Source of the DNA: Myxococcus stipitatus DSM 14675
GTDB lineage: Bacteria > Myxococcota > Myxococcia > Myxococcales > Myxococcaceae
Length of the DNA: 64,000 nucleotides
NCBI RefSeq assembly: GCF_000331735.1
Contig: NC_020126.1
Span: 3,348,001-3,412,000 of the forward strand
Direction of reading: 5' to 3'
Below the pieces are notes generated by a model. The model was given only the letters and a program-made list of their open reading frames with translations. It did not search any database and was not told where the DNA came from. This document shows positions 10,889-64,000 of this stretch, in pieces (position 1 is the stretch's first letter; each line of letters starts with the position of its first letter). The translations under genes were made by a program, and so were the position numbers.

Positions 10889-11563
10889 ATGGCGACGAAG
10901 AAACGCAAGTCGAGTGCTGCGAAGAAGTCATCCCGGCGCGCCTCCACCGCGAAGAAGCCCGCGGCGAAGAAGTCCGCGGCACGAAAGGCCACCGCGAAGA
11001 AGGCCGCGACGCGAAAGAGCGCCGCGAAGAAGGGCTCGGCGAAGAAGAGCCCTGCGACGAAGAAGGGAGCTGCTCGCAAGAGCGCCGCGAAGAAGGGCGC
11101 GGCTCGGAAGAGCACCACCGCGAAGAAGAAGTCCGGCACCAGCGTGCGAGGTGGCAAGAAGGCCGCGAGTGCGTCCACGCCACGCACCGCCAGGCTGCCC
11201 CCTCCTCGGGAGACCCCCGCTCCGGTGGAGGTCTCCATCGTGGCCTGGGCGGAGCCCGTGGAGGAGGACACGCCGTTCGAGGAGCAGGTGGAGACCTCGT
11301 CCGCGGGCCTCCAGCCGCTCGCCCCCGAGCACGCGGCGGTGGACGAGCTGACCAGCTCCGGCAACGAGCTGCTCGACATCTTCCAGCGCTATGACCGCAA
11401 CCGGACCGGCGCCATCGAGCGCGCGGAGTTCGCGCGGCTGCTGGAGGCGCTCGGGCAGAACGTCACGGACGAGGAGCTGGAGATCGCCCTGGACATCGTC
11501 GACACGGACAACACCGGGCGCATCTCCTGGAGCGAGTTCAAGGTCTGGTGGAACAGCCGCTAG
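10889..11563 (+). CDS. Histone-H1-like basic protein fused to a calmodulin-like EF-hand pair
   Basis: 224 residues. Residues 4-95 are a Lys/Ala-rich tail built from AAKK, ARKS and KKSA units, like the C-terminal tail of histone H1 and bacterial H1-like proteins. An acidic linker follows, then two complete EF-hand loops: DRNRTGAIERAE at 169-180 and DTDNTGRISWSE at 205-216, both with canonical Ca2+ ligands at loop positions 1, 3, 5 and 12. The ATG at 10889 is preceded by AGGAGG at good spacing. The architecture suggests a DNA- or polyanion-binding protein whose state depends on calcium (inference). It stands alone between the RIO kinase and a hybrid histidine kinase. Confidence 0.9.
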   Translation: MATKKRKSSAAKKSSRRASTAKKPAAKKSAARKATAKKAATRKSAAKKGSAKKSPATKKGAARKSAAKKGAARKSTTAKKKSGTSVRGGKKAASASTPRTARLPPPRETPAPVEVSIVAWAEPVEEDTPFEEQVETSSAGLQPLAPEHAAVDELTSSGNELLDIFQRYDRNRTGAIERAEFARLLEALGQNVTDEELEIALDIVDTDNTGRISWSEFKVWWNSR

Positions 11564-30591: not shown

Positions 30592-32283
30592 TCAGGCGGC
30601 CTGGGGTGAGCGGCTGGGAGCGGCGGGGACGTGGCCCGCCCTCACCACATAGTCGCCGAAGCCCTCTCCCCGCAGGCGCTCGCGGGCATACGCGGCGAAC
30701 AGCGGGTCGAGCACCGCGAGGAGGGTCGCCTCGTCCACGTTCTCCCGGTAGAGGCGGTTGAGGCGCTGGCCTCGGACGTCCCCGCCCAGGTGGAGGTTGT
30801 AGCGGCCGGGCGCCTTGCCCACGAGGGCAATCTCCGCGAGGTACGGCCGGGCGCACCCGTTGGGGCATCCGGTGATGCGCAGCAGGATGTTCGCGTCCTG
30901 GAGCCCGTGCGCGGTGAGGCGCTCCTCCACGCGCTCCACGAAGGTGGGCAGGTAGCGCTCGGCCTCGGCCATGGCGAGACCGCACGTGGGCAGGGCCACG
31001 CAGGCCAGGGCGTTGCGGCGCAAGGGGCTCGCGTTCTTGAACCCGTCCAGCCGGTGTTCCCGGATGAGCGTCTCAATCCGCTCCCGGGCCTCGGGCTGAA
31101 TGCCCGCGATGACCAGGTTCTGGTTGGGCGTCAGCCGGAAGTCTCCGGTGTGGATGCGGGCAATCTCCCGCAGGCCGGTGAGGTGCGGTGCGTCGGTCCG
31201 GTCCGCCACGCGTCCGCTGTCCAGGTGCAGGGTGACGTGCCACCGGCCGTCATGGCCCTCGCGCCAGCCGAAGCGGTCGCCGTTGTGCTCGAAGGTGAAG
31301 GGCCGCGCGGGCTCCAGGGAGAAGCCCAGGCGGCGCTCCAGCTCCTGCGTGAACCAGGCGGGGCCTCGGTCCTCCAGGACGTACTTCAATCGGGCCCGCT
31401 TGCGATTGCCCCGGTCCCCGAAGTCGCGGTGCATCTTGAGCACCTCCTCGGCCACCCCGAGCATCCGCTCGGGTGGGACGAAGCCGATGACATCCGCGAG
31501 CCGAGGGAAGGTGTTGGCGTCACCGTGCGTGGCGCCGAGTCCCCCGCCTACGCTGACGTTGAAGCCCACCAGCGCGCCGTCCTCGATGATGGCGATGTAG
31601 CCCAGGTCGTGGGCGAAGAGGTCCACGTCGTTCTCGGGGGGCACCGCGACGGCGACCTTGAACTTCCGGGGCAGGTAGGTGGCCCCGTACATGGGCTCCT
31701 CCTCACCACCGGCGACCTTCTCCTCGTCCAGCCAGAGCTCGTAGTACGCGCGTGTCTTCGGCAGCAGGTGCTCGGACAGGCGCACGGCCCAGCTGTAGAC
31801 CACCTCGTGGAGCCGGGTGTCGGCGGGGTTGGGATTGCACAGGACGTTGCGGTTGACGTCGCCGCAGGCGGCGATGGTGTCGATGAGGGAGGCGTTGATG
31901 CGGGCAATGGTCGGCTTGAGGTCTCCCTTGAGGATGCCGTGGAGCTGGAACGCCTGACGGGTGGTGATGCGCAGGCTGCCGTTGGCGTGCTCCCGCGACA
32001 GCCCGTCCATGACGAGCCACTGGGCGGGAGTGCAGACGCCACCGGGCAGGCGGGTGCGCAGCATGAAGCTGTAGTCCGGCTCCAGCTTCTGCTGCCTGCG
32101 CTCCTCTCGCGAGTCCCGGTCGTCCTGCTGGTAGCTGCCGTGGAACTTGATGAGGCTGGTGTCCGTCGAGGAGATGGCGCCCGTCACCGGGTCCGCGAGG
32201 CTCTCCGCCAGCGTCCCGCGCAACAGGCGGCTGTTCGCCTTGATGTGTTCCACCTCGGAAAGAGGCTTGGGTTGGGTGCTCAT
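30592..32283 (-). CDS. cysI: Sulfite reductase hemoprotein subunit
   Basis: 563 residues, matching CysI. The [4Fe-4S]/siroheme ligands are in [17 protein letters not shown] and [10 protein letters not shown]. The N-terminal half has [12 protein letters not shown] and [11 protein letters not shown]. It performs the six-electron reduction of sulfite to sulfide with electrons from CysJ, encoded 29 bp upstream. It is the last gene of the seven-gene operon. The siroheme it needs would come from cobA and the precorrin-2 dehydrogenase gene in the same operon. Confidence 0.96.
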
Positions 32284-32312
32284 GTCTTCGCTCTCGTTTC
32301 GGGGGGATTCAT

Positions 32313-34172
32313 TCAGTAGACGTCGCGCAGGTAGCGGCGCTCATCGCGCAGACTCTTGAGCCAGTCCTCGGCGGCCTCGCGGCTCCGGTCGCCGTGCTGG
32401 GCGACGACGTCGACCAGCGCCTCGTGGACATCGGGGGCCATGCGCTGCGCGTCGCCGCACACGTAGAGGGATGCTCCTCCCTCCAGCCACGCGAAGAGCT
32501 CCTTGCCCTGCTCGCGCAGGCGGTGCTGGACGTAGACCTTCTCCGCGGTGTCGCGGGAGAAGGCGACCGAGAGCCGGTGGAGCGTCTTCTTCTTCAGCGC
32601 CTCCTGCCACTCCGTCTGGTAGAGGAACTGGCTGCGGAAGTGCTGCTCTCCGAAGAAGAGCCAGTTGCGGCCGCGTGCGCCCACCTCGGCGCGCTCCTGG
32701 ACGAAGGCCCGGAAGGGCGCGACGCCCGTGCCGGGACCAATCATCACCACGTCGCGGCTGGAGTCCTCCGGAAGCCGGAAGCGGTCATTGCTCTCCACGA
32801 AGACGCGGACGGTGTCCTCCTCCGTGCCTCGCGTGGCCAGGTGGTACGACGCGTTGCCCAGGTGGCGCTCACCGAAGGCGGTGTAGTCGACCACCGACAC
32901 CGTGAGGTGGGCCTCCGCGCCCACCCGCTTGGGACTGGAGGCAATCGAATACAGCCGAGGCGTCTGCTTGCGCAGCGCGAGGACCAGCTCCTTCGCGCCC
33001 CACCGCGCGGGGTGCTGACGGAGCATGTCGATGACCTGATGGCTCTTCAGCAGCGCGCGGAAGGACTCCACACCCGAGGGGGACAGCAGGGTCTGAAGCG
33101 CGCTGCTCTCCGCGAGCGAGGCGTGGCGCTCCAGGAAGGGACGGCTCAGCCGGGTCAGCTCCAGCTCATCCGTGAGCCAGCGCGACAGGGGCAGCGTCTT
33201 CCCATCGCGCGTCACCGTCTCGGCTCCGTCCAAGCGCTGCTGCGTCAGCACGGCCTCCACCAATTCGGAGGCGTTGGGGGCCCAGACCCCCAGCGAGTCG
33301 CCGGGGAGGTACTCCAGGCCGGAGCCCTCGAGTGAGAGCTCGACGTGGCGGACATCCTTGAGCGCGCCTCGGCCGGTGATGCGTTGGTTGACGAGCACCG
33401 CCGCGCTGAAGGGCGCCTCCTTTCCCACGGTGGGGAGCGAGGGCGCTCCTCGCAGCGGGACGACGGTGGCGACGGCGGGCGCACGAGGCTCGACCGCCTC
33501 CCGCGTGCGGGCGAGCGTCTGGTCCAGCCAGCCCGCGGCGATGGGCTCGAAGTCCAGGTCGCAGTCCGCGCGCTCCGTGAGCCGCGTGGCGCCCAGCTCC
33601 ACCAACCGCGCGTCGAGCACCCGTCCGACTTCGCAGAACTTCGGATAGCTGGAGTCGCCGAGCCCCAGCACCGTGAAGCGCAACCCCTCCAGGCGAGGGG
33701 CCCGCTTGGCGAGCAGGAACTCGTAGAACGCGCGCGAGTCGTCGGGCGGGTCTCCGTCTCCCTGCGTGCTGATGACCACGGCGAGGAACTTCTCTCGCGC
33801 CAGCTCTCGCACCGGGTACTCGCTGGCCCGGAGGAGCCGCACCGGGAGGCCCGCGCCCTCCGCCTGCCGCTTGAGCCGCTCCGCGAGGTGACGGCTGTTG
33901 CCCGTCTGGGTGCCGTAGACGATGGTGAGCGGCGATGTGGGGGCTTCCGGGGCGGGCGCGGGAGGCTCCACCGAGGTGATGGGGACAGCGAGCACGGCGG
34001 CCGTGCCCGTGCGGACGGCGAGGCCCGCGGCATAGCCGCTGAGCCAGTGCAGGGCCGCCGGGTCCAACCCCTCCACGAGGCGCAGCAACTGCGTGCCCTT
34101 CTCCCCACCCAGCACCGCGTCGACGAAGGGCGGCGCGGGTCTTGGGAGGACACCGGGGGATGGGGCGCTCAT
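32313..34172 (-). CDS. cysJ: Sulfite reductase flavoprotein subunit
   Basis: 619 residues. Flavodoxin domain at about 75-215 ([18 protein letters not shown]), FAD/NADPH reductase domain from about 240 on: [40 protein letters not shown]-terminal RYLRDVY. It passes NADPH electrons via FAD and FMN to CysI. The ATG at 34172 overlaps the cysN stop as ATGA. The first ~60 residues resemble the N-terminal extension of CysJ proteins. Confidence 0.96.
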
Positions 34173-35902
34173 GACTTGTTCTCCCGCGTCGAGGCGAGGC
34201 GCTCGGTCCAGCGCTCCACGGATTCGGATTCCTCCAGCTCCCACCAGCCCGTGCCCGCGTCGCGCGTCTCCTCGCGCAGCGTGCGGCGGACCTGGGGCGC
34301 GTGGGCCTGCACCAGCACGAGCAGGCCCGCGCGTGCCAGGGCCTGCGCCACCTCCACGTCGCCGTTGACGGTGGCGACATGCAGGCCCCGGTCGAACAGC
34401 GCGCGCTCCAGCGCGAAGGCGCGCTGCTCGCTGTCGGGCGTGGCGGGGAGCAGGACGACGGCGCCGGACTGGCCCAGGTTCTTCCACCGCTCATCGCGGC
34501 TGACCTGGGACTGCGCGCCGCGCGACGTGGTCTCCGCGGGGCCGAGCACCATGCCCGCGCCCACGGTGTCGTGGGTGAGCGCGTCGATGACGATGAAGGC
34601 GCCCGTGCGGCGGTTCTCCTGGTACGGGTCGCACAGCAGGGGACGCCGGCAGAGCAGGCGCACCCGGCCGATGTCGTTGAGCGAGAGCGACTCCGCGGGG
34701 ACCTCCGCCAGGTCCTCCAGCTCCTTGCGCCACAGCACGCGCTCGATGTTCGCGGGCGCGGTGCGCGTGGCCTGCTTCACCAGGTAGCGGCGCGTCGCGT
34801 CCAGCGGCTGCTCACCGAACCACACCAGCATCGCGTCGAGGTGCTGGAGGGCCAGGGGCGGCTGATTCACGTGGGCCAGCACGTCACCCCGGCTGGCGTC
34901 CACTTCGTCCGTCAGCCGCAGCGTGATGGAGGCCGTGGCGGAGGCCTCCTCGCGAGGACCATCGAAGGTGTCGATGGCCTCCACCCGGGTCTTGCGCCCC
35001 GAGGGCAGCACCTGCACCTCGTCCCCCACGCGCACGGTGCCGGAGGCCACCTGTCCGGCGAGCCCGCGATAGTCCTGGTGGGGACGCAGCACGTACTGGA
35101 CGGGGAAGCGGAAGGGCGCGCCGTCGAGCCGACGTTGATGCGGCAGTGACTCCAGCCAGGACAGCAGCGTTCCGCCGTCGAACCAGGGCGTGCGCGGGCT
35201 GGAGCGGGTGATGTTGTCGCCCCGGCTGGCGCTGACGGGGAACAGCCGCACGCCCTCGAAGCCGAGGGTGAGGGCGAAGTCCGCCAGCTCCGTGCCGATG
35301 CGCTCGAAGGTGGCGCGGTCGTAGCCCACCAGGTCCATCTTGTTCACCACCACCGCGAGGTAGGGGATGCCCAGCAGCGAGGCGATGTACGCATGCCGCC
35401 GCGTCTGCGGCAGCACGCCCAGCCGCGCATCCACCAGGATGACCCCCGCGTCCGCGGTGGACGCGCCCGTGGCCATGTTGCGCGTGTACTGGAGGTGCCC
35501 CGGCGTGTCCGCGATGATGATCTTCCGCCGTGCCGTGGACAGGTACCGGTAGGCCACGTCGATGGTGATGCCCTGCTCCCGCTCCGCACGCAGACCATCG
35601 GTGAAGAGCGAGAAGTCGAGCTCCTCCTCGTCACCCGCGCCCGCGGCGGCCTTCAGGCCCTGCGCGAGCACCTCGGGAGGAACCTCCGTCCGGGCCGCGG
35701 CCCGCTTCGCGCTGGCGCGGCGCACGGCGGAGATCTGGTCCTCGAAGAGTCCGTCGCATTCGTAGAGGAGACGACCGATGAGCGTAGATTTGCCATCGTC
35801 CACGGAGCCCACCACGGCGAGCCTCAGCAGCGCGCGGTTGGAGTGCTCGTCGAGGAGCTGCTGCACGTCGGAGGGGAGTGCGGCTTGGAGTGCGGTGTCC
35901 AT
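34169..35902 (-). CDS. cysN: Sulfate adenylyltransferase subunit 1 with a degenerate APS-kinase tail
   Basis: 577 residues. Residues 1-460 are a CysN GTPase: P-loop GSVDDGKSTLIGRLL, switch DTPGHLQYTRNM, NKMDLVGYD, then EF-Tu-like domains 2 and 3 ending in RTGAFIVIDALTHDTVGAGM. From about residue 467 it reads VSRDERWKNLGQSGAVVLL, which matches the start of CysC, and ALERALFDRGLHVATVNGD matches its second block. The P-loop position holds PATPDSEQR and the rest is cut to ~110 residues instead of ~190. The tail therefore cannot be an active APS kinase. The GTPase part drives APS formation with CysD. Its start overlaps the cysD stop by one base (TGATG). Confidence 0.94.
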   Translation of the reverse strand: MDTALQAALPSDVQQLLDEHSNRALLRLAVVGSVDDGKSTLIGRLLYECDGLFEDQISAVRRASAKRAAARTEVPPEVLAQGLKAAAGAGDEEELDFSLFTDGLRAEREQGITIDVAYRYLSTARRKIIIADTPGHLQYTRNMATGASTADAGVILVDARLGVLPQTRRHAYIASLLGIPYLAVVVNKMDLVGYDRATFERIGTELADFALTLGFEGVRLFPVSASRGDNITRSSPRTPWFDGGTLLSWLESLPHQRRLDGAPFRFPVQYVLRPHQDYRGLAGQVASGTVRVGDEVQVLPSGRKTRVEAIDTFDGPREEASATASITLRLTDEVDASRGDVLAHVNQPPLALQHLDAMLVWFGEQPLDATRRYLVKQATRTAPANIERVLWRKELEDLAEVPAESLSLNDIGRVRLLCRRPLLCDPYQENRRTGAFIVIDALTHDTVGAGMVLGPAETTSRGAQSQVSRDERWKNLGQSGAVVLLPATPDSEQRAFALERALFDRGLHVATVNGDVEVAQALARAGLLVLVQAHAPQVRRTLREETRDAGTGWWELEESESVERWTERLASTRENKS

Positions 35903-36819
35903 CAGAAGTATCCCTCGCGCTTCTTCAGCTCCATGGAGCCTTCTTCGTCGTGGTCGATGAGCCGGCCCTGCCGCTCGGACTGCCGCGCGTGGACCATCTC
36001 GTGGATGACGGCCTCCACCGTGGTGGCGGAGGATTCGATGGCGCCGCTGAGCGGGTAGCAGCCCAGCGTGCGGAAGCGCACCTTGCGCAAGGTGGGGCGC
36101 TCACCGGGACGCAGGCGCATGCGCTCGTCGTCCACCATCAGCAGCGACCCGTTCCGGTCGATGACGGGGCGCTCGGCGGCGAAGTAGAGCGGCACCACGG
36201 GGATGCGCTCGCGCAGGACGTAGTGCCACACGTCCAGCTCCGTCCAGTTGGACAGGGGGAAGACGCGCATGCTCTCGCCCGCGTCCACGCGCCCGTTGTA
36301 GAGGTTCCACAGCTCCGGCCGCTGCCGGCGCGGGTCCCACTGGCCATGCTTGTCGCGGAAGGAGAAGACGCGCTCCTTGGCGCGGGACTTCTCCTCGTCG
36401 CGGCGGGCGCCACCGAACGCCGCGTCGAAGCCGTGCAGCGCGAGCGCCTCCAGCAGCGCCTGCGTCTTCATCGCGTGGGTGTACTTCTGGCTGCCATGGT
36501 CGAAGGGGTTGATGCCCTCGGCGAGCGCCTTGCGGTTCTGGTGGACGATGAGCCGCAGCCCGTGCCGGGCCACGAAGTTGTCCCGGAACGTGTACATGTC
36601 CCGGAACTTCCAGGTGGTGTCGACGTGGAGCAGCGGGAAGGGCAGCGGCGCCGGGTGGAAGGCCTTGCGCGCCAGGTGCAACAGGACCTGTGAGTCCTTG
36701 CCGATGCTGTAGAGCATCACCGGGTTGGCGAACTCCGCCACCGTCTCCCGGAGGATGTGGATGCTCTCCGCTTCCAGCTCCTGGAGATGGGTGGAGCGTG
36801 CGTGGATGGTGTCAGTCAT
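35902..36819 (-). CDS. cysD: Sulfate adenylyltransferase subunit 2
   Basis: 305 residues, the usual CysD length. The PP-loop is [18 protein letters not shown], with [14 protein letters not shown] and [16 protein letters not shown] conserved. Forms APS from ATP and sulfate, powered by GTP hydrolysis on CysN. Its first codons overlap the cobA end by eight bases. Confidence 0.97.
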
Positions 36820-37612
36820 TTCCTGCCTCCGCGAATCGGGGAAGCACTTCCCCCGCGCTTGAATCTCTTCGGGTGGTGAGTGAGTGGAGCCGGGCGCGCA
36901 GCGCGACGACCTCTCCGACGACGAGCAGCGAGGGAGAGCCCAGCCCCGCCTCGCGCGCCTTCTCGGCCACGTCCGACAGGGTGCCCTCCACCACGCGCTG
37001 GTGCTCCCAGGTGCCGGCCTCCACCAGCGCCGCGGGGGTGGACGCCGCGCGGCCCGCGGCGACGAGCGCCGCCGTGGTCTCCTCCAGGCGCTGGCCCGCC
37101 ATGAACATCACCAACGTCTGGGCACGCGCGAGGAAGGGCCAGTCCGGTGTGCCATTCACGCGAAACCCCGTGGCGAACGTCACCTCACCGGACACGTCTC
37201 GATGCGTGACGGGGATGCCCGCGGCCGAGGGCGCGGCGATGCCGGCGGAGAGGCCCGGGACGACTTCATACGGGATGCGCGCGGCCTCCAGCGCCAGGGC
37301 CTCCTCGGCGCCTCGGCCGAAGACGAACGGGTCTCCTCCCTTGAGCCGGACGACGGTGCGGCCCAGCCGCGCCTGGGTGACGAGCAGGGCGTTGATGTCC
37401 TCCTGCCGCACGGACTCTCCGCCCCCCTCCTTGCCCACGTAGATGAGCCGCGCATGTGGACGTGCGTGCTCCAGCACACCGGGGTGGATGAGGCGGTCAT
37501 GCACCACCGTGTGCGCCTCGCGCAGCAGCCGCGCCGCGCGCAGCGTGAGCAGCTCCGGGTCTCCCGGGCCTGCCCCCACCAGGTACACGCACCCTCTTGA
37601 CGACTCCTTCAT
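36812..37612 (-). CDS. cobA: Uroporphyrinogen-III C-methyltransferase
   Basis: 266 residues. SAM-binding motifs [16 protein letters not shown] at the start and [20 protein letters not shown], followed by [15 protein letters not shown]. It methylates uroporphyrinogen III twice to precorrin-2, the siroheme branch point. The ATG at 37612 overlaps the preceding stop as ATGA, which decides the start over one eight codons upstream. Together with the next upstream gene it does the work of a fused CysG. Confidence 0.95.
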
Positions 37613-38265
37613 GTCGGTTCTCCAGATGACTTCCATGTCTTCAGTTCCGAGCGCAGCCGCGTGAAGACGGCTCCGCGCTCACCGCGCGCCCGCAGCGCGC
37701 CCAGCTCTCCGTCCACCAGTCGCTTCAGCAGGTGCTGCCGTCGGGGGCCTCGCGGCAGGTGCCGCCGGAGCCACCCGCTCAGCCGCGCGAGCCAGACATG
37801 GTGGGATGCGATGTGTGCTCCCAGCTCCCGCCGCAGGTGTCGGGCGAGCGCGGGGGCATGGCCTCCGGTGGAGATGGCCAGGGTGATGGGCCCTCTTCGC
37901 TCGACCGAGGGCAGCGTGAAGTCGCACAGCTCCGGCTCATCCGCGGTGTTCACCCACTGGCCCGCGGCGCGTGCCTCGGCCACGAGCTGGTGGTTCACCT
38001 CGGCGTCATCCGTCGCGGCGAGCACCAGCGCGTGGCCTCGGGTGTCTCCCGTGCGATAGGTCCGTGGCTCCCACTCCAGCCGCCCCTCGGAGGCGAGGCG
38101 CTGGAGGGTGTCGGTGAGGGTGGGCGCGATGAGGTGGAGCCGCGCGCCCGCGTCGAGCAGGGCCAGGGCCCGCCCTTCGGCGACGGGGCCGCCGCCCACG
38201 AGCAGGACGCGGCGCCCCTCCAGCCGGAGGCTCACGGGATAGTCGATGGCGGTGACGGTGCTCAT
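37609..38265 (-). CDS. Precorrin-2 dehydrogenase / sirohydrochlorin ferrochelatase (CysG N-terminal type)
   Basis: 218 residues. The NAD-binding Rossmann start is VLLVGGGPVAEGRALALLDAGA, followed by VLAATDDAEVNHQLV, WVNTADEPELCDFTLPS and ISTGGHAPALARHLR, all typical of the Met8/CysG N-terminal enzyme. It oxidises precorrin-2 and inserts iron to yield siroheme for CysI. ATG 38265 lies 14 bp after the cysH stop. C-terminal ~40 residues are more divergent. Confidence 0.93.
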   Translation of the reverse strand: MSTVTAIDYPVSLRLEGRRVLLVGGGPVAEGRALALLDAGARLHLIAPTLTDTLQRLASEGRLEWEPRTYRTGDTRGHALVLAATDDAEVNHQLVAEARAAGQWVNTADEPELCDFTLPSVERRGPITLAISTGGHAPALARHLRRELGAHIASHHVWLARLSGWLRRHLPRGPRRQHLLKRLVDGELGALRARGERGAVFTRLRSELKTWKSSGEPT

Positions 38266-38279
38266 GGGCGGGGGCGGCG

Positions 38280-39026
38280 TCACCGGACGGGGTGGAGGCC
38301 GCATTCGCTGTGCTCGCGCGACTCCCACCACCAGCGGCCCGCGCGCTCGTCTTCGTACGGCTTCACCGCTCGCGTGCAGGGAGCGCAGCCGATGGACGCG
38401 TAGCCCCGGTCGTGCAGCGTGTTGTAGGGGACGCCGTTGTCCCGGACGTAGGCCCACACCTGCTTGCGGCTCCACGCGGCCAGCGGGTTGAGCTTGAGCA
38501 GCCCGCCGTGCTCGGCGTCGTATTCGACGACGGGGACCTTGTTGCGATTGAGCGACTGCTCACGCCGAAGTCCCGTCACCCAGCCGTCGCGGCCCTGCAG
38601 CGCGCGGCGCAGGGGCTCCAGCTTGCGGATGGCGCAGCACTCCTGGCGCGCCTCCAGGCTCCGGCGGAACGAGAAGTAGCCCTGCTCCGACTCCAGGGCC
38701 TCGACGCGCGTCCGGTCCGGGAAGAAGGTCTCCACCGTGACGCCGTAGCGGTTGCGGGTGACCTCGATGATCTCGTACGTCTCGGGAGGGAGCCGGCCCG
38801 TGTCGAGCGTGAAGATGCGAAGGCTGGGGGCGTGCTTGCGGGCCAGGTCGATGAGGACCATGTCTTCCACGCCGAAGCTCGAGGCGATGGCCGCGCGCTC
38901 ACCGAGCTGTTGCTCGACCCAGGCGAGGACCTGCTCCGCGGGCGCGGCCTCGAAGGGCGCGGCCGCTGCGAGCAGGTCCTGGGGCGTACGGGCGAGGGTG
39001 GAAGAGGGAGACGGCTTGGCGGACAC
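38280..39026 (-). CDS. cysH: Assimilatory APS-type reductase (phospho/adenylyl-sulfate reductase)
   Basis: 248 residues from a GTG at 39026 (GGAG seven bases upstream). The PP-loop-like fold shows ASSFGVEDMVLIDL, FTLDTGRLPPETYE and VTGLRREQS. Cys130-Cys131 (ECCAIRK) and Cys214/Cys217 (GCAPC) form the two pairs that bind a [4Fe-4S] cluster in APS reductases; PAPS-specific CysH enzymes lack them. The catalytic Cys242 lies in ECGLH. The enzyme should therefore reduce APS directly to sulfite, which fits the dead APS-kinase tail on CysN. It is the first structural gene after the attenuator leader; an upstream frame extension to 39170 crosses the terminator and is not used. Confidence 0.94.
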   Translation of the reverse strand: MSAKPSPSSTLARTPQDLLAAAAPFEAAPAEQVLAWVEQQLGERAAIASSFGVEDMVLIDLARKHAPSLRIFTLDTGRLPPETYEIIEVTRNRYGVTVETFFPDRTRVEALESEQGYFSFRRSLEARQECCAIRKLEPLRRALQGRDGWVTGLRREQSLNRNKVPVVEYDAEHGGLLKLNPLAAWSRKQVWAYVRDNGVPYNTLHDRGYASIGCAPCTRAVKPYEDERAGRWWWESREHSECGLHPVR

Positions 39027-39049
39027 GATGGACTCCAGGGGATGAAAAA

Positions 39050-39082
39050 CAAAAAGGCCCGCGCCTCTTTCGAGGGCGGGCC
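39050..39082 (-). terminator. Intrinsic terminator / attenuator in the cys leader
   Basis: On the minus strand an 11-bp stem with one bulged base closes a GAAA loop (5' arm GGCCCGCCCTC, 3' arm GAGGCGCGGGCC) and is followed by TTTTTGTTTTTC. It sits 33 nt after the stop of a Cys-rich short ORF and 24 nt before the cysH start, so it terminates before, not after, the operon. Its 5' arm (39074-39081) is exactly complementary over 8 nt to 39138-39145 inside the short ORF, allowing an alternative antiterminator pairing. Confidence 0.85.
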
Positions 39083-39114
39083 GCGCGAGCTGGGGAAGTG
39101 GAGGTCGGGAGACG

Positions 39115-39270
39115 CTATCCACTCCTCGAGGCTCGGAGCCCGCCCGGAGGCGGACACACGACGCACGCACACGCCAGACAGCGGATGGCCTTCACGTCAG
39201 CGCGCGCGAGGGCGAGCGCCGCGAGGGGCGCGGGCTGCATCGCGTGGAGCTGGGTGGAGGCGAGGCGCAT
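39115..39270 (-). CDS. Second Cys-rich leader short ORF (candidate)
   Basis: From ATG 39270 it encodes 51 residues; from ATG 39240, 41 residues. The C-terminal part contains RCLACACVVC, four Cys within ten residues, and ends 33 nt before the terminator stem. Neither start has a Shine-Dalgarno site, and the frame is open further upstream to 39417, so the true start is uncertain. A ribosome stalled at the Cys codons would leave the segment 39138-39145 free to pair with the terminator's 5' arm. It could also be chance coding in GC-rich leader RNA. Confidence 0.5.
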   Translation of the reverse strand: MRLASTQLHAMQPAPLAALALARADVKAIRCLACACVVCPPPGGLRASRSG

Positions 39271-39382
39271 GGACGGGAGCCAGGAAGAGACGGAGTGAGG
39301 ATGAAGGAAGGAGACCCGGACCTCTGGAGGGAGGTGGGTCTGGGTGAGGCGCGTGGGGCTCAGGGAGCTTCCGGTGCGCGCT

Positions 39383-39469
39383 TCAACAGCCCAGGCCCGA
39401 GAGGGCACAACAGGCACACGCCCGGCGGCAGCAGCGGCGAAGCAGCGCGGCCATCGGGGTGGAAGTCAT
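39383..39469 (-). CDS. Poly-cysteine leader peptide of the cys operon (candidate)
   Basis: 28 codons from ATG 39469 (30 if an in-frame GTG at 39475 is used), beginning MTSTPMAALL and continuing RRCCRRACACC, with a final Gly-Cys before TGA. Six of 28 residues are Cys, including two adjacent pairs. The predicted transcription start near 39476 leaves almost no 5' UTR and there is no Shine-Dalgarno, so translation would be leaderless or nearly so. Mycobacterial sulfur operons use leaderless polycysteine short ORFs as cysteine-responsive attenuators; this has the same features in front of cysH. Function is inferred. Confidence 0.65.
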   Translation of the reverse strand: MTSTPMAALLRRCCRRACACCALSGLGC

Positions 39470-39482
39470 CAGCACGGAGCGC

Positions 39483-39512
39483 AAGCTATCGGCTGTTGCC
39501 TCTTGCCGTCAA
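39483..39512 (-). promoter_or_regulatory. Candidate sigma-70-type promoter of the cys operon
   Basis: On the minus strand, -35 TTGACG (39507-39512) and -10 TAGCTT (39483-39488) are separated by 18 bp. The -35 matches consensus at five of six positions; the -10 is weaker. The implied start is near 39476, one base or so from the GTG/ATG of the poly-Cys short ORF. The promoter begins 28 bp after the stop of the upstream oxidase gene. Confidence 0.5.

Positions 39513-44045: not shown

Positions 44046-64000
<19,955 letters not shown>

Follow-up and report, generated by a model that had tools for sequence, protein, structure and literature searches.

The leader of the cysH operon of Myxococcus stipitatus DSM 14675 is best read, on sequence evidence, as a tandem, ribosome-mediated transcription attenuator of the trp type that would sense Cys-tRNA through two same-signal units placed in series; we assign this reading a probability of roughly 0.85. 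Indeed, this leader of approximately 450 nt carries two ORFs with clustered cysteine codons, one behind the other, with a candidate antiterminator/terminator pair behind each, and as a whole it folds better than its own shuffles (z = -3.2). A previous sequence-only reading had taken a single short ORF for the sensor: this ORF is real, but it is one of two in series, and the second had been missed. All coordinates given here are those of the window, i.e. the whole 64-kb stretch of DNA analysed (NC_020126.1, positions 3,348,001 to 3,412,000), in which an Rfam scan at the gathering score returned no match.

The first leader ORF (ORF1; minus strand, 39383-39475) was seen in 30 genomes and aligned in 29 of them. 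It translates as VLMTSTPMAALLRRCCRRACACCALSGLGC followed by a stop codon, counts 30 codons from the GTG at 39475 or 28 from the ATG at 39469, and includes six cysteine codons. No Shine-Dalgarno sequence is visible ahead of it. The 28-codon, six-cysteine ORF reported earlier at 39475-39383 is recovered as described, on the minus strand. Upstream, a predicted -35 element (TTGACG, 39507-39512, minus strand) and a predicted -10 element (TAGCTT, 39483-39488, minus strand), separated by an 18-nt spacer, would place the transcription start near 39476, one base ahead of the GTG. The pair was not picked up by a generic sigma-70 consensus scan, which found no promoter, and its weight therefore rests on conservation: TTGACG, a 17-18 nt spacer and TAnnnT are present in 29 of the 30 genomes with a tandem leader (TTGACG was not found in L041), and the start codon lies 7-14 nt past the -10 element in 25 of the 29 genomes with the promoter. 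From this spacing, ORF1 is predicted to be near-leaderless, at the very 5' end of the transcript and devoid of Shine-Dalgarno sequence, which lends support to the near-leaderless start proposed before. Four genomes (L012, L013, L014 and L018) display an insertion resembling a doubled -10 region, the ORF1 start codon being located 18-34 nt from the first -10.

Downstream of the leader, cysH, encoding a (P)APS reductase (38280-39026, minus strand), begins at the GTG at 39026 behind an SD-like GGAG (39036-39033). The rest of the operon (30592-38475, minus strand) was assigned to a siroheme synthase N-part, a uroporphyrinogen-III methyltransferase, cysD, cysN, cysJ and cysI. The position of the ORF ahead of cysH and six sulfur genes is thus confirmed, with the genes now identified, and these seven genes presumably form one transcript.

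The second ORF (ORF2; 39115-39270, minus strand; 51 codons) translates as MRLASTQLHAMQPAPLAALALARADVKAIRCLACACVVCPPPGGLRASRSG followed by a stop codon, with four cysteine codons at 39180, 39171, 39165 and 39156. It is internal to the transcript and lies behind a pyrimidine-rich, G-poor stretch (39311-39271) that itself follows the hairpin of the first unit; an in-frame ATG (YCATG) occupies the matching place behind this hairpin in 30 of 30 genomes, and neither a Shine-Dalgarno sequence nor an own promoter was seen for ORF2. Three alternative structures, all on the minus strand, make up the putative switch of this second unit. A protector hairpin CCGCC/GGCGG (39140-39153) is overlapped by the antiterminator 5' arm GGGCGGGCTCCGAGC (39131-39145), which lies inside the PGGLRA codons and can pair with the 3' arm GCTCGCGCGGCCCGCCC (39074-39090); the second half of GCTCGCGCGGCCCGCCC is also the 5' arm of terminator 2 (GGCCCGCCCTCGAAAGAGGCGCGGGCC then TTTTTGTTTTT, 39045-39082). 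Both antiterminator arms were delineated by folding, alignment and shuffles, and terminator 2 by a terminator scan, folding and alignment. The latter ends 18 nt ahead of the cysH GTG, and is the one site returned by an intrinsic terminator scan over 2.5 kb, where 0.6 would be expected by chance.

Predicted energies range from -31.7 to -42.2 kcal/mol for the antiterminator of unit 2 (17 genomes folded) and from -22 to -36 kcal/mol for the 60-nt terminator windows. Across 30 unit-2 sequences, 99.4% of the alignment cells pair in the terminator, 98.2% in the antiterminator and 98.0% in the protector, versus only 27-60% (30-60% for terminator and antiterminator) in a control in which the partners were slid by 1-3 columns. 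No pair changed on both sides was found in the protector, antiterminator and terminator arms of this 30-row alignment; however, these arms are nearly invariant within the genus, which makes covariation counts uninformative, and part of the covariation alignments were also misaligned in the inner helix.

Unit 1 follows the same plan in other letters. Its candidate antiterminator, read from sequences and folding, would pair a 5' arm GGGCCTGGGC (39389-39398, minus strand) with GCCCGGCCC, which reads CCCAGACCC in the window (39336-39344, minus strand; eight of nine positions can pair) and overlaps the hairpin that comes after it. This hairpin 1, a candidate terminator (39312-39341, minus strand; -15.1 kcal/mol), is followed by CCTTCCTTCA, a poor U-tract in the window genome, whereas good U-tracts are found in the genomes around M. 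xanthus (CGGCCCGGTCTCCTGTCCCAGGAACCGGGCCG TTTTCGTTTC). These hairpins were extracted by a script applied to 32 loci, which left out L046 and L047 and took another hairpin in L007, L011, L017 and L037; in L037, just three of the ten antiterminator arm bases pair.

The density of cysteine codons is by itself no argument. The window has three places with five cysteines in 12 codons, and when the leader was subjected to 2000 dinucleotide shuffles, 23 of them gave five or more: by composition alone, such a cluster is unremarkable. It is conservation that makes the case. Apart from the leader, the cluster near 57241 was rejected, being out of frame within an ORF of 6626 aa (a single open frame spans 44046-63926 on the minus strand), and the other chance-level cluster, RRCARCCPCRRC, is located at 11528 on the minus strand. 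Codon choice sets the leaders apart: TGT encodes seven of the ten cysteines in the two cysH leader ORFs of the window genome, and 11 of 14 once the cysK leader of this genome (see below) is added to make three, whereas nine neighbouring ORFs use it for 1 of their 27 (Fisher p = 1.3e-6).

To evaluate conservation, 96 genomes of the family were searched for cysH; 51 gave a match at 1e-20, and the upstream DNA was examined for 50 of these (L001-L050, the G044 match being left out). Both ORFs are intact in 30 genomes, namely 27 of 27 from the genus, 2 of 2 from g5 and 1 of 1 from g20. In the 29 genomes aligned, cysteine counts vary from 5 to 8 in ORF1 and from 4 to 8 in ORF2, and cysteine columns persist (e.g. 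column 16 of ORF1 and column 48 of ORF2, 29 of 29 each), some of them mixing TGT and TGC, while the non-cysteine residues drift. Variable columns at codon positions 1, 2 and 3 number 12, 14 and 10 for ORF1 and 26, 22 and 27 for ORF2; variation at position 3 hardly exceeds that at the other two, and the peptides thus look unconserved as proteins. The expectation that cysteine-rich ORFs with otherwise changing residues would be retained upstream of cysH is borne out in these 30 genomes, and the idea of a cysteine-codon attenuator of the sulfur operon draws strong support from this comparison.

Beyond these genomes the picture is more heterogeneous. A single Cys leader with a terminator precedes cysH in two g3 genomes (L046 and L047), and a clear Cys leader adjoining cysH is absent from 18 of the 50 upstream regions (for L036, just 39 nt of upstream DNA). 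The loss of cysteine codons in relatives that keep the operon, a point raised by the sequence-only reading, is not seen within the genus, where 27 of 27 genomes retain them; elsewhere in the family, other genera do show it. Three g3 loci (L030, L032 and L035) have no cysteine codon but still possess the promoter, a similar start (ATGACGCTCC in L030 and L035) and the terminator, and apparently represent decayed leaders. In G048, the Cys leader is found one gene further upstream of cysH, before a NirA-like gene (L089). Four g8 genomes (L031, L033, L034 and L040), excluded from the count, carry a weaker frame with three cysteines in ten codons, e.g. MFCPFCPS in L040, directly following the predicted promoter ahead of cysH; this frame is possibly a Cys leader, either reduced or separate.

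Several side observations were made in these regions. An inverted repeat (TCCGTTATAACGGA, CCGCTATAGCGG or CCGCCATATTGGCG) is found near the predicted cysH promoter of L019, L020, L022, L030, L032, L035, L042, L046 and L048, that is, in several other genera, mostly without and once with a Cys leader (L046). It also lies over the promoter of one cysK leader (L087), and is possibly a repressor site. Upstream of cysH in 41 records of other or unnamed groups (L112-L152), three Cys-rich frames were noticed, none of which resembles the leader by eye. The record titled Comamonas sp. KCTC 72670 (L109) contains a myxobacterial leader and cysH, and its name is probably wrong.

The Cys leader is not unique to the cysH operon, as it recurs before other cysteine and sulfur genes. 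A covariance model built on unit 2 and applied to 195 genomes of the phylum, together with a broader model, was used, most of their weak matches spanning just the terminator part. From these matches, a single-copy Cys leader (e.g. MSLPLPTTGAQCCCCRVACACCCLAGPEHWESA followed by a stop codon) was identified before cysK in seven genomes of the genus; one of the seven genes was tested and scored 410.7 bits against TIGR01139 (cut-off 350.95), and the other six share its protein start. When the 27 genus genomes were searched at the protein level for a second cysK, another Cys leader came to light upstream of it in 11 of 11 carriers, among them the window's own genome (L167; cysK at 432.3 bits, over 350.95). 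Altogether, 18 genus genomes, including that of the window, have a Cys leader before cysK, the best cysK match of the remaining nine being without one in the 400 nt examined; in one set of 30 cysK loci examined, 15 have the leader. Single-copy leaders also precede a NirA-like reductase in G155 and G048 (PRK09567, approximately 255 bits, below the cut-off of 523), a Sulf_transp gene in G155 (PF04143, 43.9 bits over 27), and cysH in two genomes of another family, G114 and G117 (PRK02090, 289.6 and 287.4 bits over 154). Behind these single-copy leaders, a terminator-like hairpin is recognizable by eye.

The model matches L090, L092, L093 and L157-L159 were discarded on inspection, as no fitting Cys leader was present. 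A DNA pattern combining promoter, cysteine pair and terminator arm, applied to the whole genome of the window, gave seven matches, the cysK leader being the sole plausible one among them, and ten in the reversed control. Between the cysK-a leaders (GACGGG/CCCGTC/ACGGGCC) and unit 2 (GGCGGG/CCCGCC/GCGGGCC), one position is changed in all three arms, a difference read by eye between two loci; this joint change is the best single hint that a three-way pairing matters.

The antiterminators were further compared with shuffled tails in 35 of the 38 defined leaders, two unit-1 leaders and one cysK leader being left out of the parsing. The mean z-score is -2.5, and 26 of the 35 leaders, which are related and hence not independent, fall below -1.65. 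This category includes all 12 unit-2 leaders and 10 of the 11 other single-copy leaders, whereas only four of nine unit-1 leaders and none of the three cysK-a leaders reach it; support is thus good for unit 2 and for most single copies, and weaker for unit 1. The window's own unit-1 antiterminator (L001) has a z-score of -2.1. The three cysK-a leaders yield minimum free energy z-scores of -0.6 to 0.3, yet their arm-to-arm duplexes reach -2.2 to -2.7. In 35 of 35 leaders, 61-74 nt separate the last cysteine codon from the terminator arm.

Concerning the origin of the tandem, units 1 and 2 of the g20 genome (L041) agree at 124 of 162 aligned columns (77% identity), and the unit-2 model finds unit 1 of this genome at 3.2e-21. 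In general, this model detects unit 1 below an E-value of 1e-3 in just three genomes (G080, G060 and G074). The single leader of g3 resembles ORF1 at its start and unit 2 at its end. A tandem duplication of one attenuator explains both the identity of the L041 units and this g3 leader. ORF2 of L041 contains 15 cysteines derived from an expanded TGC triplet repeat, which suggests that sensor strength can be changed by repeat slippage.

Taken together, these features point to the following mechanism. Transcription would start within a few bases of ORF1, which would allow the first ribosome to load at the 5' end. With ample Cys-tRNA, the ribosome translating each ORF would pass the cysteine codons and reach the stop codon; as the stop codon sits in the antiterminator, the latter would be blocked, the terminator would form and transcription would end. 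When Cys-tRNA is scarce, the ribosome would stall at the cysteine codons and cover the protector arm, the next segment would pair with the terminator 5' arm, and RNA polymerase would continue into cysH-I. Since the two units are arranged in series, polymerase would have to pass both, provided that the weaker hairpin of unit 1 also works in the window genome, and such a gate should multiply repression or sharpen the response.

Four other explanations were considered. In one of them, a Cys-rich ORF would simply have arisen by chance in GC-rich DNA; the two other places of the window with comparable clusters agree with this, but retention in 30 genomes and repetition ahead of other cysteine genes already contradict it, and we give it practically no credit. 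Nearly as improbable is a role of the ORF1 and ORF2 peptides as proteins, e.g. as small metal-binding or redox peptides. The CxC and CC spacings are like those of metal-binding motifs, and both ORFs are kept in 30 genomes; against such a role, length, cysteine number and non-cysteine residues vary with little third-position excess, the TGC repeat of L041 yields 15 cysteines, and those single copies that are confirmed precede sulfur genes and come with a terminator.

The remaining two alternatives concern the way in which the leader works, and neither is considered likely. One retains unit 2 (ORF2 and terminator 2) as the sole regulator in the window genome, ORF1 being a decaying copy or a ribosome entry site. 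The weak U-tract of hairpin 1 in this genome, the minority of parsed genomes in which the unit-1 antiterminator surpasses its shuffles and the rare recognition of unit 1 by the unit-2 model all fit this view; however, the ORF1 frame with at least five cysteine codons is retained in 29 of 29 aligned genomes, its promoter spacing is also kept, terminator 1 is strong in the genomes around M. xanthus, and the L001 unit-1 antiterminator does stand out from its shuffles. This is the less unlikely of the two. The other, somewhat more doubtful, invokes translation or Rho attenuation of the kind suggested for mycobacteria: translation of ORF1 would govern either Rho or the ribosome site of cysH, and the hairpins would be incidental. 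The stretch at 39311-39271 resembles a Rho loading site, and the poly-Cys ORFs of mycobacteria are termed translation attenuation in PMC13236596. Yet cysH is preceded by a conserved intrinsic terminator and an antiterminator that exclude each other, hairpins resembling terminators are seen by eye behind the single-copy leaders, and the cysH ribosome site is located behind the terminator, outside it. The tandem trp-type attenuator remains the preferred reading.

Extending this reading to the phylum, we lean, with some reserve, towards a Myxococcota cysteine regulon (cysH operon, cysK, NirA-like reductase, sulfur importer) under near-leaderless poly-Cys attenuators, one of which would have been duplicated in Myxococcus and near relatives into a series gate, transcription of the operon then requiring agreement between two independent ribosome readings of the same tRNA. 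Cysteine control in myxobacteria would thereby gain a concrete, testable mechanism, and the cysH leader would provide a natural instance of two attenuators for one amino acid within a single leader. As the duplication is still readable in one genome, the logic of attenuators in series (steeper response or lower leak) becomes measurable, and the apparent stages of decay in related genera allow both gain and loss to be traced. It would also extend near-leaderless poly-Cys sensing outside the actinobacteria, here with intrinsic terminators.

Among the matches listed from the open-licence literature, none concerned a cysteine attenuator in myxobacteria, which does not establish its absence from print. 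The trp, his and leu attenuators combine a leader peptide rich in codons for the end product with protector, antiterminator and terminator arms upstream of the biosynthetic operon. The cysH leader resembles them in its clustered cysteine codons ahead of cysteine-making genes and, for unit 2, in the terminator before the first gene; an antiterminator sharing an arm with the terminator is likewise found in unit 2, and in part in unit 1. It differs in that cysteine would be sensed, the first ORF is predicted to be near-leaderless and two units stand in series. The trp type is summarized in PMC3641672, which also presents the Salmonella mgtCBR leader, with two short ORFs and two attenuators responding to ATP and proline without intrinsic terminators, and calls these tandem attenuators a singular example. 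The cysH leader shares with mgtCBR the two short ORFs and two attenuators, but here both units carry clustered cysteine codons, i.e. codons for the same amino acid. In the Rhodobacterales (alphaproteobacteria), uORFC-8-2 is described in PMC8632094 as a leader ORF with two cysteine codons and an intrinsic terminator, upstream of cysS. Compared by description, both systems place cysteine codons of a leader ORF before an intrinsic terminator, although the elements reported here precede cysH, cysK, NirA-like and Sulf_transp genes rather than cysS.

The closest precedent for ORF1 comes from the mycobacteria, in which leaderless polycysteine ORFs at the head of cysteine and sulfur operons have reportedly been characterized by Canestrari et al. 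2020. With these and other actinobacterial leaders, the myxobacterial element has in common a short, Cys-rich ORF heading a cysteine or sulfur operon, predicted to be near-leaderless in the case of ORF1, ORF2 being internal. No conserved terminator is described for the actinobacterial cys leader peptides in PMC1262725, and the mechanism proposed here thus differs from that precedent. The mycobacterial-type mechanism first suggested for this leader consequently gives way to classic transcription attenuation, made likelier by the conserved antiterminator and terminator before cysH. Unlike the actinobacterial leaders, those of the myxobacteria appear to combine near-leaderless cysteine sensing with intrinsic terminators, antiterminators and tandem copies, and this in another phylum.
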